NCBI RefSeq assembly: GCF_030378065.1
Contig: NZ_JAUCGJ010000042.1
Location: forward strand, 1 to 39,425
Direction of reading: 5' to 3'
Source of the DNA: Candidatus Venteria ishoeyi
Lineage (GTDB): Bacteria; Pseudomonadota; Gammaproteobacteria; Beggiatoales; Beggiatoaceae
Length of the DNA stretch: 39,425 nt
Below are positions 5,689-10,851 of the stretch, piece by piece (positions within the stretch are counted from its first letter, which is position 1; every line of letters starts with the position of its first letter). Made by a program: the position numbers and the translations under genes. The notes under the pieces are model-generated. The model did no database searches. It saw only the letters and a list, made by a program, of their open reading frames with translations, and had not been told where the DNA came from.

Positions 5689-5832
5689 CTTGACTTCGAT
5701 GTAAGCTTCATTCAACGCTACGCGTAGAAAGCCGCTTACATCTCAGGCTAAAATTTTACTGGGTTCGATCAGCGCTGCCGCAGAAAATCTGCTTATATTT
5801 CACGCTAATTTTTTACACTGGAAAAAAACTGG

Positions 5833-6795
5833 ATGAACTACGCACGGATTATTGGCACTGGCAGCCACTTACCTGAACGGGTATTAAGCAATGCCGACCT
5901 GGAAAAAATGGTTGATACCAGTGATGAATGGATCGTCACCCGTACCGGCATCCGGGAACGACATATTGCCGCCAACGGTGAAGGCGTGGTTGATCTGGCA
6001 TTACAAGCGGCAACCCATGCTTTGCAAGCAGCTGAAGTTGCAGCCGACAGCATTGATTTAATCATTTTTGCCACCACCACCCCGGATCGGGTATTTCCCA
6101 GTTCTGCCTGTTTATTGCAGCAAAAACTCGGGGCAACCCAATGTGCGGCATTTGATATACAAGCGGTATGCACAGGCTTTCTTTATGCCCTGGGTACGGC
6201 TGAAAAATTTATTCGCAGCGGCTCCCATAAACGTGCGCTGGTGATTGGCGCGGAAGTTTTCTCGCGTCTGGTGGATTGGAATGATCGTGGCACTTGCGTG
6301 TTGTTTGGTGATGGTGCAGGGGCGGTGGTGCTGGAAGCCAGTGAAGAACCAGGTATTTACTCCAGTCATTTATATGCCGATGGTCAATACAGCAACAGTC
6401 TGACAGTGAACAGTTATGTTGCTCAAGGACAATTGCAGGGGGAATCACAGTTCACCCGGATGCAGGGTGGGGAAGTGTTTAAAGCTGCCGTGAATAATAT
6501 GGCCAGTTCCGCACTGGAAGCACTGCGCAGTAATGAGTTTAACGTCAGTGATCTGGACTGGGTGATACCGCATCAAGCGAATACCCGTATTATTCAGGCA
6601 GTTTCCAAAAAACTTAAACTGCCGCAGGAAAAAGTCATCAGCACGGTTGCCATGCATGGTAATACTTCCGCAGCCTCTGTACCCTTGGCCCTGGATACCG
6701 CAGTCAGAGATGGACGTATCCAGCCTGAGCAGCATTTATTATTGACCGCAATGGGTGGCGGGTTTACCTGGGGTTCGGCTTTACTGCGCTTTTAA
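5833..6795 (+). CDS. fabH: 3-oxoacyl-ACP synthase III (FabH)
   Basis: FabH starts type II fatty-acid synthesis by condensing acetyl-CoA with malonyl-ACP. The 320-residue protein carries the complete catalytic triad: Cys113 in [10 protein letters not shown], His247 in VIPHQAN and Asn277 in HGNTSAAS. Other family marks are [14 protein letters not shown] near residues 33-46 and the C-terminal [15 protein letters not shown]. The 144-base gap after plsX contains an imperfect repetition of about 60 bases but no gene. The stop lies only 20 bases before the AAA ATPase gene that separates fabH from its usual partner fabD. Confidence 0.97.
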
Positions 6796-6815: not shown

Positions 6816-8051
6816 ATGGCACAGATAGAAGGATTGCGCATTCAAAATTATCGTACCTTAAATGATATAGCGATGGGCTGCATTGCTACGGATCTCAAAT
6901 TAAGATTCGCTAAACCTTTAACACCATTGACGGCGGTCATTGGAAAAAATGGTTCAGGAAAAAGTTCAATATTTGATGCTTTTGGTTTTTTAGCAGATTG
7001 CATGGATTCAGATCTGGAAACTGCCTGTAATGCCAAAGGGCGTGGTGGTTATGACAAGCTGGTTACAAATGGCAGGGAAAATGATCCGATAAGAATAACA
7101 ATTAATTATCGAGAATCACACAATGATCGCCCTATTACTTATGAAGTTGCCATTGGCAAAGATAAACACGGCTTACCCATTGTAAAATCAGAAAGGCTGA
7201 GACAACGGGAAAAAAACCAGCGGCATGGCTTGCCCAAATCATTTCTTAACCTGGAAAATGGTAAAGGGATGGTCTGGGTTGGTGATGATGCGTTAGAGGG
7301 GGATGAATTACAACGTAAGGCAGTTGAACTTTCTCAGCAAAAACTCGCTATCGTTTCACTTGCTGAGCAGTTTTCAGAAAACCCCCGCATTGCCGAGTTT
7401 AAGTCTTTTATCAAAGCATGGTATTTGAGCTATTTCTATCCAGACGCTGCCAGACAGATACCCCAGGCAGGCATACAAAAACACCTTAACCTGCATGGTG
7501 ATAATGTCGGCAATGTCGTTCAATATCTGGAACGAAATCATCCTGTTATTATTAAACGTATCTTTGACGATATTTCAAAAAAAATTCCCGGAATAGGCAC
7601 TATTAAAACCTATAAAGATGAGATTACCAATAATCTCTATCTTTTATTTGAAGATAAAGGTTTTGCCAAGCCGTTTACGCAGCAGCAAATGTCAGATGGA
7701 ACACTGAAGATGTTTTGTTATATGCTGCTATTACAAGATCCTGAGCCAACACCTTTTATTTGTATCGAAGAGCCGGAAAATGGCTTATATCATAAGCTAC
7801 TGGAGACGCTTGCATTTGAATTCAAATCTCATGCAACGGGACGCAAAGGCGGCTCCCAGGTATTTATTACAACGCATCAACCTTATTTTGTTGATGCGCT
7901 TGCACCTGATGAGGTCTGGGTGCTGGAAAAAAATGATGACGGCACCGCAATGATTAAACGCGCCAGTGAATACCCTTATGTTCAGGAAATGGCTGATGAG
8001 GGACAGCCGTTGGGTGCGCTTTGGTATAGTGACTACCTGGATGCAAGGTAG
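6816..8051 (+). CDS. AAA family ATPase (AAA_21/OLD-like), probable defence component
   Basis: A 411-residue ABC-like ATPase of the AAA_21 / OLD / RecF-like group. The N-terminus IEGLRIQNYRTL is typical of that group; Walker A is GKNGSGKSS at 43-51; the ABC-like signature is MSDGT at about 292-296; Walker B is FICIEEPENGLY at about 314-325 with the paired glutamates; the switch histidine lies in ITTHQPYF (about 354). Such ATPases are paired with a nuclease or TOPRIM partner in OLD-type and PARIS-type anti-phage systems, and the next gene, five bases on, fits that partner. The role in defence is inference. The gene lies inside the fab cluster, between fabH and fabD, which is not its usual place. 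Confidence 0.85.
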   Translation: MAQIEGLRIQNYRTLNDIAMGCIATDLKLRFAKPLTPLTAVIGKNGSGKSSIFDAFGFLADCMDSDLETACNAKGRGGYDKLVTNGRENDPIRITINYRESHNDRPITYEVAIGKDKHGLPIVKSERLRQREKNQRHGLPKSFLNLENGKGMVWVGDDALEGDELQRKAVELSQQKLAIVSLAEQFSENPRIAEFKSFIKAWYLSYFYPDAARQIPQAGIQKHLNLHGDNVGNVVQYLERNHPVIIKRIFDDISKKIPGIGTIKTYKDEITNNLYLLFEDKGFAKPFTQQQMSDGTLKMFCYMLLLQDPEPTPFICIEEPENGLYHKLLETLAFEFKSHATGRKGGSQVFITTHQPYFVDALAPDEVWVLEKNDDGTAMIKRASEYPYVQEMADEGQPLGALWYSDYLDAR

Positions 8052-8056
8052 AAGCG

Positions 8057-8722
8057 ATGCACTTTGAAATTTTAGTAGAAGGGCAAACAGAATTAACGAC
8101 TCTCTCCATATTAATGGATAAAATTGTGGGTCAATATAATGTGCCTCATACCTGGAAAATCCATAAGCATCAGGGCATTGGGCGTTTGCCGGGTAATCTT
8201 GTTGGCCAGCCTCAAAAAAATGATAGAACACTGTTACACAACCTGCCTTCAAGGTTAAGAGCTTATGGAAATCGTATGGGAGATCAGGAAATTGTAGTAC
8301 TTTTGCTTGACCTTGATGATAGGAAGGATTGCGTCGCATTTAAAAATGAACTGTGGTTGGTATTAGATTCATGTGAAAAAAAACCTAATTTTCTGATCCG
8401 AATTGCGATTGAAGAATTGGAAGCATGGTATTTTGGTGATCAACATGCGATAGAAAAAGCTTATCCAGACTATAATAAAAAAGTATTAGCTGATTATATT
8501 CAGGATGCACAGTGCGGCACATGGGAGCAATTAGCGGAAGCAATTCATCCAGGTGGATTGAAATCCCTGCAACATTACGGCAAACGCTCAATACGCATAC
8601 TTGAAGAAAAACGAAAATGGGCGGCTAAAATTGCACCACACATGAATGTTGAGAAAAATAAGTCACCAAGTTTTTGCTGTTTCCGTGATGGTTTACGACG
8701 TTTTACCTTGAATTCTCATTGA
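8057..8722 (+). CDS. DUF4276 family protein, TOPRIM-like partner of the upstream ATPase
   Basis: A 221-residue protein with the DUF4276 layout: LVEGQTE at residues 6-12, LLLDLDD at 82-88, a central EELEAWYFGD at 119-128, and a C-terminal KSPSFCCFRDGLRRF. The glutamate of VEGQTE and the aspartates of DLDD match the metal-binding acidic positions of TOPRIM folds, so a metal-dependent nuclease-like activity is plausible but not shown. It starts five bases after the ATPase stop, so the two are cotranscribed and probably form one functional unit. The DNA looks AT-richer than the fab genes: 8281-8340 has 24 G/C of 60, while 9121-9180 in fabD has 38 of 60 (spot counts). Confidence 0.8.
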   Translation: MHFEILVEGQTELTTLSILMDKIVGQYNVPHTWKIHKHQGIGRLPGNLVGQPQKNDRTLLHNLPSRLRAYGNRMGDQEIVVLLLDLDDRKDCVAFKNELWLVLDSCEKKPNFLIRIAIEELEAWYFGDQHAIEKAYPDYNKKVLADYIQDAQCGTWEQLAEAIHPGGLKSLQHYGKRSIRILEEKRKWAAKIAPHMNVEKNKSPSFCCFRDGLRRFTLNSH

Positions 8723-8801
8723 AATCCTTTTTGTAGAGAAATTGCAATATGTCTCTACATTATTTGAATCTCTTTATTTTCACCAGGAATCTAAAACATC
8801 C

Positions 8802-9734
8802 ATGTCATACACATTTATTTTCCCCGGACAGGGTTCGCAAGCCATTGCTATGCTGGCTGATTTGGCTGCAAACTACCCTTTGGTTAAACAAACTTTTGAA
8901 GAAGCCTCAGAAGCACTACAACAAGATCTCTGGAAATTAAGCCAGGAAGGCCCGAAAGAAGCACTTAACCAAACTGATAACACCCAGCCTGCGATGTTAA
9001 GCGCAGGCATTGCCGTGACGCGGGTCTGGGCTTCGCAAAATGGCGCGCCAGCCAGTTTATGTGCTGGTCACAGTCTGGGCGAATACAGCGCGCTGGTTCA
9101 TGCAGGTAGTCTGGCATTTACTGACGCGGTAAAGCTGGTGGCTTTACGCGGGCGCTTGATGCAGGAAGCAGTGCCTGCCGGACAGGGGGCAATGGCGGCA
9201 ATACTGGGGCTGGACGATGCCCAGGTAAAAGAAGCCTGTAGCAGCGCGGCGCAGGGTGAAGTGGTTGCCGCAGTGAATTTTAATGCGCCGGGTCAGGTGG
9301 TGATTGCCGGACAAAAAACGGCTGTTGAGCGTGCCGCAGAAGCTGCCAAGCAGGCAGGGGCAAAACGTGCTTTATTATTACCGGTCAGCGTACCTTCGCA
9401 TTGTGACTTGATGCGCCCTGCTGCGGACAAATTAGCAGAAGCTTTAGCGCAGATAAACCTGGAAAGTCCGGCAATACCCATCATTCATAATGTGGATGTG
9501 ACACAAAAAACCGACCCGGATACAATCCGTGAGGCTTTAGTCGGTCAATTATTCCAGCCGGTGCGCTGGGTGGAAACCATACAGGCCATTGCTGAGCAGC
9601 AACCGGAAGTGGTGCTGGAAATGGGGCCGGGTAAAGTCCTGACGGGGTTAAATAAACGTATTAATAAAAACTTACAAAGCTTAGCGGTGTTTGATCCGGC
9701 AAGTCTGGACAAGGCGCTGGCGATAGGGAATTAA
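8802..9734 (+). CDS. fabD: Malonyl-CoA:ACP transacylase (FabD)
   Basis: FabD loads malonyl groups onto acyl carrier protein. From the ATG at 8802 the protein has 310 residues, the usual length. It opens with SYTFIFPGQGSQ, has the nucleophile Ser91 in GHSLGEYSAL, the partner His200 in VPSHCDLM, and ends with the expected EMGPGKVLTGLNKRI region. A longer in-frame start at 8742 exists but adds 20 residues outside the family; CAGGAA lies about 12 bases before the chosen ATG. The 79 bases between the DUF4276 gene and this start hold a small GTAGAGA/TCTCTAC inverted repeat. The gene is followed two bases later by fabG. Confidence 0.96.
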   Translation: MSYTFIFPGQGSQAIAMLADLAANYPLVKQTFEEASEALQQDLWKLSQEGPKEALNQTDNTQPAMLSAGIAVTRVWASQNGAPASLCAGHSLGEYSALVHAGSLAFTDAVKLVALRGRLMQEAVPAGQGAMAAILGLDDAQVKEACSSAAQGEVVAAVNFNAPGQVVIAGQKTAVERAAEAAKQAGAKRALLLPVSVPSHCDLMRPAADKLAEALAQINLESPAIPIIHNVDVTQKTDPDTIREALVGQLFQPVRWVETIQAIAEQQPEVVLEMGPGKVLTGLNKRINKNLQSLAVFDPASLDKALAIGN

Positions 9735-10497: not shown

Positions 10498-10851
10498 AAT
10501 TACATTATAATCACGCATTTTATTCATTGCGATACTGAAATTTTTGCGATACTGAAATTTGGCATAAGTTTCATTCAGCACTAAGGAGTGAGAATTTTAT
10601 AACTTCAGCAACTTGGCTGGTCTTTTTCTCCATTTTCTACGTTGTGAAAACAGTTACATAGCTTGCTATGCGCCTGTTTTCACGCCTTGAAAATAAATAA
10701 AAATCCTGCGCCCAGTTTCTGTATTTATTTCATCTTCACTCCTAAAGACGCTGAAATACGTCAAATTCAGATTGAATAATGTCTGGTTTTATTTATTTTT
10801 CTCCGGGTTTTTATGGCCTGGACCTGAATTATCCGGGAGGATATTAAGATT
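10498..10851. other. fabG-acpP intergenic region
   Basis: This gap holds a direct repetition of TGCGATACTGAAATTT near 10528-10560, a full MITE-like element (10582-10745), and then about 105 AT-rich bases leading to acpP. A promoter for acpP is expected here, since acpP is normally highly expressed, but I found no convincing -35/-10 pair. In E. coli the same gap is short. Confidence 0.6.
10582..10745 (-). mobile_element. MITE-like element, copy 1 (upstream of acpP)
   Basis: About 164 bases with imperfect terminal inverted repeats: TAAGGAGTGAG at one end, and TTAGGAGTGAAGATGAAATAA when read from the other. In reverse orientation it matches 30084-30259 nearly throughout, including ACTGGGCGCAGGATTTTTAT, AAGGCGTGAAAACAGGCGCA and AATGGAGAAAAAGACCAGCC. 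It has an internal palindromic segment (CATAGCaagCTATG) and no coding capacity. Confidence 0.85.

Follow-up and report, generated by a model that had tools for sequence, protein, structure and literature searches.

The question raised by this locus is why the genes of an ATPase and a DUF4276 protein lie between fabH and fabD, and what the pair does there. The window, i.e. the whole stretch of 39,425 nucleotides analysed here, comes from Candidatus Venteria ishoeyi. The original prediction had placed the ATPase gene 5 bases upstream of the DUF4276 gene, both between fabH and fabD, and these coordinates were borne out to the base (Table 1). Both open reading frames were intact, on the plus strand and 5 bases apart, the ATPase frame beginning 20 bases after the end of fabH at 6795 and the DUF4276 stop codon lying 79 bases before the likely fabD ATG at 8802, for which the program-made ORF list gave a longer alternative starting with a TTG at 8742. 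A Pfam search matched AAA_21, DUF4276 and the FabH and FabD flanks, and the motifs quoted earlier for the two proteins were present, with key residues invariant in alignments of seven sequences.

Table 1. Features of the ATPase-DUF4276 pair and its flanks in the window
Feature	Position	Strand	Evidence
fabH (3-oxoacyl-ACP synthase III), upstream flank	5833..6795	+	ACP_syn_III and ACP_syn_III_C matches
HEC-01A ATPase, 411 aa, SMC/ABC-type head	6816..8051	+	AAA_21 8.5e-39; PADLOC HEC-01A PDLC04182 1.8e-169
Walker A, residues 43-50 (GKNGSGKS)	6942..6965	+	G43, N45, G46, G48, K49, S50 invariant 7/7
SDGTLK, residues 293-298, ABC-signature-like	7692..7709	+	invariant 7/7
Walker B region, residues 314-322 (FICIEEPEN)	7755..7781	+	F314, I317-N322 invariant 7/7
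HEC-01B, DUF4276 protein, predicted TOPRIM-type nuclease, 221 aa	8057..8722	+	DUF4276 2.9e-13; PADLOC HEC-01B PDLC04205 3.5e-86
Glu8, predicted TOPRIM glutamate	8078..8080	+	invariant 7/7; strand 2-7 ends just before
Asp85-Leu-Asp87, predicted TOPRIM DxD at strand 3 end	8309..8317	+	D85, D87 invariant 7/7; strand 78-85
EELE, residues 119-122, conserved acidic cluster	8411..8422	+	E119, E120, E122 invariant 7/7
Inverted repeat, short, 7-base arms, between DUF4276 gene and fabD	8733..8758	+	sequence inspection
fabD (malonyl-CoA:ACP transacylase), downstream flank	8802..9734	+	Acyl_transf_1 7.6e-43

The ATPase scored 134.8 bits against AAA_21 (cut-off 27) and 61.8 bits against AAA_15 (cut-off 32.1), and between its Walker motifs it carries SDGTLK, which we take to have an ABC-signature-like role. 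Its structural model (pLDDT 74) matched SMC/Rad50 heads with a Z of about 20, and also PtuA (Z 17.5), retron Eco8 (Z 17.2) and the OLD protein of T. scotoductus (Z 17.0). For the DUF4276 protein, an AlphaFold2 model built from seven sequences (pLDDT 81, pTM 0.81) had alternating strands and helices, in which the predicted TOPRIM glutamate follows strand 1 and the DxD follows strand 3; E8, D85, D87, E119, E120 and E122 were invariant in two alignments of 7 sequences each. Foldseek returned no match to this model at E <= 0.001. Re-alignment of the Foldseek list placed 6nk8, the TOPRIM region of a Burkholderia OLD protein, first (Z 9.4, rmsd 4.2, 171 residues), with PH0156 (2p62) level with it at Z 9.3 and the TOPRIM effector of retron Eco2 at Z 6.0; unrelated structures began at Z 7.6, which was counted against the fold argument. 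The margin of 6nk8 is modest, and the placement of the motifs in the model is the stronger argument for a TOPRIM fold. On this basis the DUF4276 protein is predicted to be a nuclease of the TOPRIM type, similar to that of OLD proteins. The TOPRIM-like fold proposed for it was thus recovered in the AlphaFold2 model and the 6nk8 match, and the outcome named beforehand as contrary, a structure prediction lacking that fold, was not what the model showed. Searches of solved structures by sequence, at E <= 0.001 and at E <= 1, gave no match for either protein.

Both proteins had their best PADLOC matches in one family, HEC-01, the ATPase to HEC-01A over residues 1-410 and its neighbour 5 bases downstream to HEC-01B, in agreement with the defence-type family suspected at the outset. 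The assignment consists of these model matches, to an ATPase and an adjacent partner, and not of PADLOC's system-calling rule. NCBIfam gave sub-cut-off matches only, the best to MAD3. HEC stands for Hma-embedded candidate; the accessible part of one paper ascribes antiviral activity to several HECs, including HEC-06, and does not name HEC-01 (PMC12988326), which is recorded in a Desulfovibrio strain in an excerpt of another paper (PMC12724379). Within the literature searched, bioRxiv preprints not being covered, no published antiphage test of HEC-01 was found, nor was any literature on DUF4276. Judged from its sequence, the window pair is an additional HEC-01 member, a candidate defence system that is ordinary in kind and interestingly placed; it adds fold, gene order, and plasmid, prophage and restriction context to a catalogued candidate system.

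The distribution of the pair was followed from both genes. A set of 43 DUF4276 rows, 30 of them phylum-wide (own genome included) and 13 others, contained two duplicate pairs and therefore represented 41 distinct loci, in all of which an ATPase homologue was directly upstream of the DUF4276 gene; the gap was -1 to 8 bases in 37 of the 43 rows. When the best ATPase loci of 24 relatives were searched by tblastn, 15 had a DUF4276 match and nine had none; the pairing is looser in this direction, which was counted against the defence reading. By eye, the small partner ORF was missing beside the ATPase at three of these nine (L006, L008 and L020), and one of the 24 loci (L013) looked broken. HEC-01B was found in 27 of 398 genomes of the phylum, and ATPase homologues with at least 50% identity over most of their length in 4 of 57 genomes, the own genome being included in each count. 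An ATPase of 81% identity, together with its partner, was located on a contig of 3.1 kb that bears the label Candidatus Aminicenantes, for which mis-binning is possible and on which no FabH or FabD was matched.

Examination of the neighbours of other copies revealed that the pair was 1) next to mobF and genes of type IV secretion on the conjugative plasmid pGLE121P3, 2) within the prophage region of a Rahnella plasmid, 3) on a Meiothermus plasmid (30% identity), with DUF4433/macro-domain genes on one side and a type I restriction subunit on the other, and 4) by eye, within an apparent run of hsdM, hsdS, the pair and hsdR. Five viral contigs of IMG/VR were found via DUF4276 alignment, one DUF4276 sequence being identical to that of the Rahnella copy, and none was matched with the ATPase as query. 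Several copies elsewhere adjoined ordinary chromosomal genes (by eye), which was counted against a defence reading, and one relative carried a HEC-01 pair between cysG and trxB (trxB named by eye). The GC3 of the ATPase and DUF4276 genes was 35.4 and 30.2, respectively, versus 43.7-48.6 for plsX, fabH, fabD, fabG and fabF; relative to the copy in L060, pN was 0.127 for the ATPase and 0.236 for the DUF4276 gene, with pS values (0.95 and 0.93) near saturation. The HEC-01 pair is AT-rich, patchy in distribution and under purifying selection. Constant pairing, mobile company, patchiness, low GC3 and a pN below pS together point to an acquired pair that has been kept under selection. It was also noticed that the identities of the two halves to the window were discordant, the ATPase and DUF4276 values being 73% and 47% in L246 and 55% and 62% in L258, with L259 also compared; such discordant halves in L246, L258 and L259 hint at partner exchange between HEC-01 pairs.

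To place the insertion, fabD loci were compared in 38 of the 41 other genomes of the family, the remaining three having no true FabD match. As had been assumed, fabH and fabD were normally adjacent: they lay within 351 bp of each other in 22 of the 38 relatives and side by side at a contig edge in one more. One relative had a gap of 523 bp without a clear gene, three had other genes in the gap, seven had no fabH in the 7.6-8.2 kb examined upstream of fabD, and in four the contig end was reached. The inserts in the three relatives were a Transposase_31 (YhgA-like) protein, presumably kin to the Rpn nucleases, an HSDR_N protein and an N6_N4 DNA methylase; restriction- or transposase-type genes of different kinds have thus entered the fabH-fabD junction independently. 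Neither the ATPase nor the DUF4276 gene was matched in the stretches around fabD of the 38 relatives, so that relatives all carrying the pair at the same place, a finding named beforehand as refuting the original prediction if there was also no link to phage, were not seen. Likewise, no FabD was found downstream of the 40 other distinct DUF4276 loci (at least 264 bp examined, mostly 1.5 kb or more), and no FabH upstream of the 11 distinct loci (12 rows) having at least 500 bp of upstream DNA; because few loci have that much, it is chiefly on the downstream side, for FabD, that absence can be taken as firm. The suggested link to fatty-acid synthesis found no support in these comparisons, sister modules adjoining unrelated genes as described below, and a fatty-acid role of the pair was rejected, fab company being seen only in the window's own copy.

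Between positions 6400 and 9000, 3 promoter-like sites were found versus 6.3 in shuffles, and 2 terminator-like sites versus 2.0, both of the latter on the opposite strand; the inverted repeat downstream of the DUF4276 gene was absent from the terminator-like hits. As neither kind of site exceeded the shuffles, we infer that read-through from fabH is likely, and the shared direction and short gaps suggest that the pair and the fab genes probably lie on one transcript.

The own genome had 41 AAA_21 rows, and the surroundings of the 21 strongest were examined. With three near contig ends (C94, C19 and C7) left out, there were 18 ATPase modules, their genes called by a simple ORF rule, that lay mostly among housekeeping genes and, where typed, belonged to six known or candidate defence types. 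NCBIfam confirmed the flanks rpoB and rpoC, ilvH and ilvC, metG before one module and xseA after another, as well as hom and thrC on the two sides of an ATPase for which no partner was found. Other neighbours were named by eye (gspI/gspJ-like pseudopilins, leuS, murG, argH and serS), the two pseudopilins having no NCBIfam match at E <= 1e-10. Ten partners were compared with PADLOC: one each matched HEC-01B, PDC-M31B, PtuB (Septu), HEC-02B, PDC-M38B and PDC-M25B, and the remaining ones gave HEC-01 models (a 100-aa protein), a weak PDC-M38B match, a weak AbiLii/HEC-01B match and no match, again one each. Some modules had an opposing neighbour, and at least two sat in apparent larger defence loci.

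In each of the 16 modules tested, GC3 of the ATPase gene was below the flank mean, the median difference being -16 points (Wilcoxon p 3e-5). This test left out C46, which by eye lies inside a larger multi-gene locus, and C40, with its uncertain ATPase start; C108 was represented by a single flank, and the downstream gene used for C45 lay some 2.8 kb from it. Thirteen of the 18 modules were co-directional with both neighbours versus 73 of 124 background triples drawn from the same stretches (p 0.31); where both flanks were on one strand, the module shared it in 13 of 13 cases, and native genes may do likewise. Since co-direction was not above background, direction alone is no proof of targeting, and it was rejected as proof that operons are targeted. 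The placement is compatible with having been selected and with having been merely tolerated. Completeness of the genome is 98.8% and contamination 0.35%; its junctions are those of the assembly, in which error is possible.

Two kinds of repeat were noticed along the way. A MITE-like dispersed repeat of ~160 bp, at about 10582-10740 in the window and also in L099-L121, has terminal inverted repeats near TTAGGAGTGAG; its core had 18 matches in 304,059 bases of the own genome, one of them within the window's fab cluster, on the downstream side of fabG, and no association with module edges was found, the nearest copies being 225 and 249 bp off. The other, palindromic and intergenic, was located upstream of fabH (about 5698-5810) and again between rpoB and the module that follows it (L112, about 6960-7040), with nine loose matches in the own-genome DNA examined, some of them probably due to chance.

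The rpoB-rpoC junction is among the most conserved gene junctions of bacteria; in the own genome it contains an AAA_21 ATPase and a PDC-M31B-like partner (L112, 7187-9150), while an ATPase with a PtuB-type partner is located between ilvH and ilvC (L113, 6840-8782). Counts were made from 30 loci for each of rpoC and ilvC, own included, out of 38 genomes with a match. Among the 29 relatives, rpoB was within 373 bp of rpoC in 20, separated by 669 bp in one and in another by about 1.7 kb in which no ORF reached 80 aa, absent from the stretch examined in five (one close to a contig end) and cut by a contig edge in two. ilvH was within 394 bp of ilvC in 13 of 29 relatives and further off in three, G002, G030 and G061; four genes including one for a PIN protein lay between the two in G030 and about 2.9 kb of short ORFs in G061, and at the remaining ilvC loci ilvH was unlinked, cut by the contig or not followed. 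Both junctions thus look ancestral and their inserts derived. By contrast, hom-thrC was rejected as an ancestral junction: no hom match was found upstream of thrC (up to 1.5 kb, less at contig ends) in 29 of 29 relatives, and among three relatives followed further upstream hom appeared only in G015, about 1.6 kb above thrC, with none within 3.2 and 2.2 kb of thrC in G013 and G014, respectively. Three further loci were recorded: in G001 (L230, 3-3998) the rpoB matches are in overlapping pieces around residues 1200-1290, suggestive of partial duplication or interruption of the gene, a possible insert or assembly fault; in G002 (L241, 452-2118) a different, AAA_15 ATPase and a 108-aa ORF lie between ilvH and ilvC, a junction filled independently; and in G015 (L231, 154-1211) an Mrr_cat gene and a DUF3226-like gene (below cut-off) lie between hom and thrC.

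According to the available part of one study (PMC10121019), islands and mobile elements at integration hotspots are where defence systems cluster. Unlike that picture, many AT-rich ATPase modules here lie singly among housekeeping genes, and in the literature searched no report was found of a defence module between rpoB and rpoC or in housekeeping operons. If the arrangement is general, island-based searches would miss such modules, and new defence genes could be sought at junctions within essential operons. We offer only as a tentative idea, and a rather doubtful one, that the family keeps ATPase-nuclease modules as promoterless single cassettes in essential operons (rpoB-rpoC, fabH-fabD, ilvH-ilvC and others) and not in islands, where they would in this way be always expressed and hard to lose, would perhaps report a shut-off of host transcription, and would have been inserted without leaving mobile genes.

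As to what the pair does, we consider it probable that it is a horizontally acquired HEC-01 module, composed of a split ABC-type ATPase and a TOPRIM nuclease, that most likely acts against phage or other mobile DNA in a manner similar to PARIS. According to the portions of the reports available, a TOPRIM tRNase is kept bound by the hexameric ATPase of PARIS and is set free by a phage trigger (PMC12409363, PMC9122126), and an alternative mode is the nucleotide-gated DNA cutting of GajA (PMC10568477, PMC12796447). For co-transcription, sensing, nuclease activity, substrate and defence outcome, we infer the following course. Having inserted between fabH and fabD in their direction, the pair would probably be read from the fab transcript, its neighbours supplying steady expression and not a biochemical partner. 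By analogy with PARIS, in which a sensor ATPase is combined with a nuclease effector, the ATPase may assemble, hold or gate the TOPRIM protein until a phage-borne trigger frees or activates it. Cleavage of tRNA, other RNA or DNA by the TOPRIM protein, via a metal site of Glu8, Asp85 and Asp87, would follow and would halt phage growth, perhaps at a cost to the cell.

A two-gene unit with short gaps, AT-rich, patchy and set in line between fab genes, could also be a selfish addiction-type module, in which a TOPRIM toxin is held by the ATPase, deletion from an essential operon is difficult and any antiphage effect is secondary. However, PARIS, the nearest studied split system, was non-toxic upon deletion of either gene as far as the accessible part of the report goes (PMC9122126), and copies of the pair occur in restriction loci and prophages, and we regard this possibility as unlikely. 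Nor do we think it likely that the pair is a passive passenger that entered insertion-tolerant operons by chance and is no longer functional. The dispersed repeat downstream of fabG, a co-direction of modules that does not exceed background, and the sometimes broken copies of relatives (L013) would fit such an origin, but both frames and their motifs are intact and pN is far below pS; since a module that arrived there by chance could well be a working one, only the non-functional half of this explanation is disfavoured. Less probable still is a role in housekeeping, linked to lipid synthesis or the cell cycle, in which co-expression with fab would be meaningful. It would account for the location between fabH and fabD, and there is a cell-cycle precedent in Cran1, an OLD-family ATPase with no antiviral role in the part of the source available, which was itself counted against the defence reading (PMC12796447). 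Against it stand the lack of FabD in the downstream DNA examined at the 40 other distinct loci and of FabH upstream at any of the 11 with at least 500 bp of such DNA, the fabD loci of 38 relatives, from which the pair is missing, and the related modules that adjoin rpoB/rpoC, ilvH/ilvC and metG.

The acquired defence module that we favour can be set beside the known systems. Septu has a similar ATPase head, as judged by the PtuA match, but its partner is the HNH nuclease PtuB, whereas the partner in the window is predicted to be of the TOPRIM type and had no PtuB among its 15 matched PADLOC families; membership in Septu was rejected for lack of the HNH partner. With the HEC-01 entry of PADLOC-DB the pair shares the best models, and the same gene order holds throughout the 41 distinct loci; despite the name of that family, the copy here is not Hma-embedded but in line within the fab operon. 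OLD class 1 and class 2 proteins, among them 6nk8 (class 2) and GajA of Gabija, share the combination of ABC ATPase and TOPRIM but in a single chain, GajA being encoded beside a UvrD-like helicase, and the sources, as far as available, place the split form, PARIS, in OLD class 4 (PMC10568477). The window has two genes, flanked by fabH and fabD with no helicase adjoining, and strict membership in OLD class 2 or Gabija was rejected. Of the architecture originally proposed, OLD class 2 or PARIS, the split ATPase-TOPRIM pair therefore stands and the label OLD class 2 does not, the split form being class 4. PARIS consists of an AAA_15/AAA_21-type ATPase and a TOPRIM nuclease on two adjacent genes, as given in the excerpts at hand (PMC9122126, PMC10568477), and here likewise an AAA_15/AAA_21 ATPase has its own gene beside a partner predicted to be of the TOPRIM type. 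The partner in PARIS is DUF4435 (AriB), whereas that in the window was identified by Pfam as DUF4276, the difference already pointed out in the original prediction, and had no AriB match in PADLOC; strict membership in PARIS was rejected on the partner, the ATPase being of the right type. The insert in the fab operon is, in sum, an ATPase-TOPRIM module of split form, similar to PARIS (OLD class 4).
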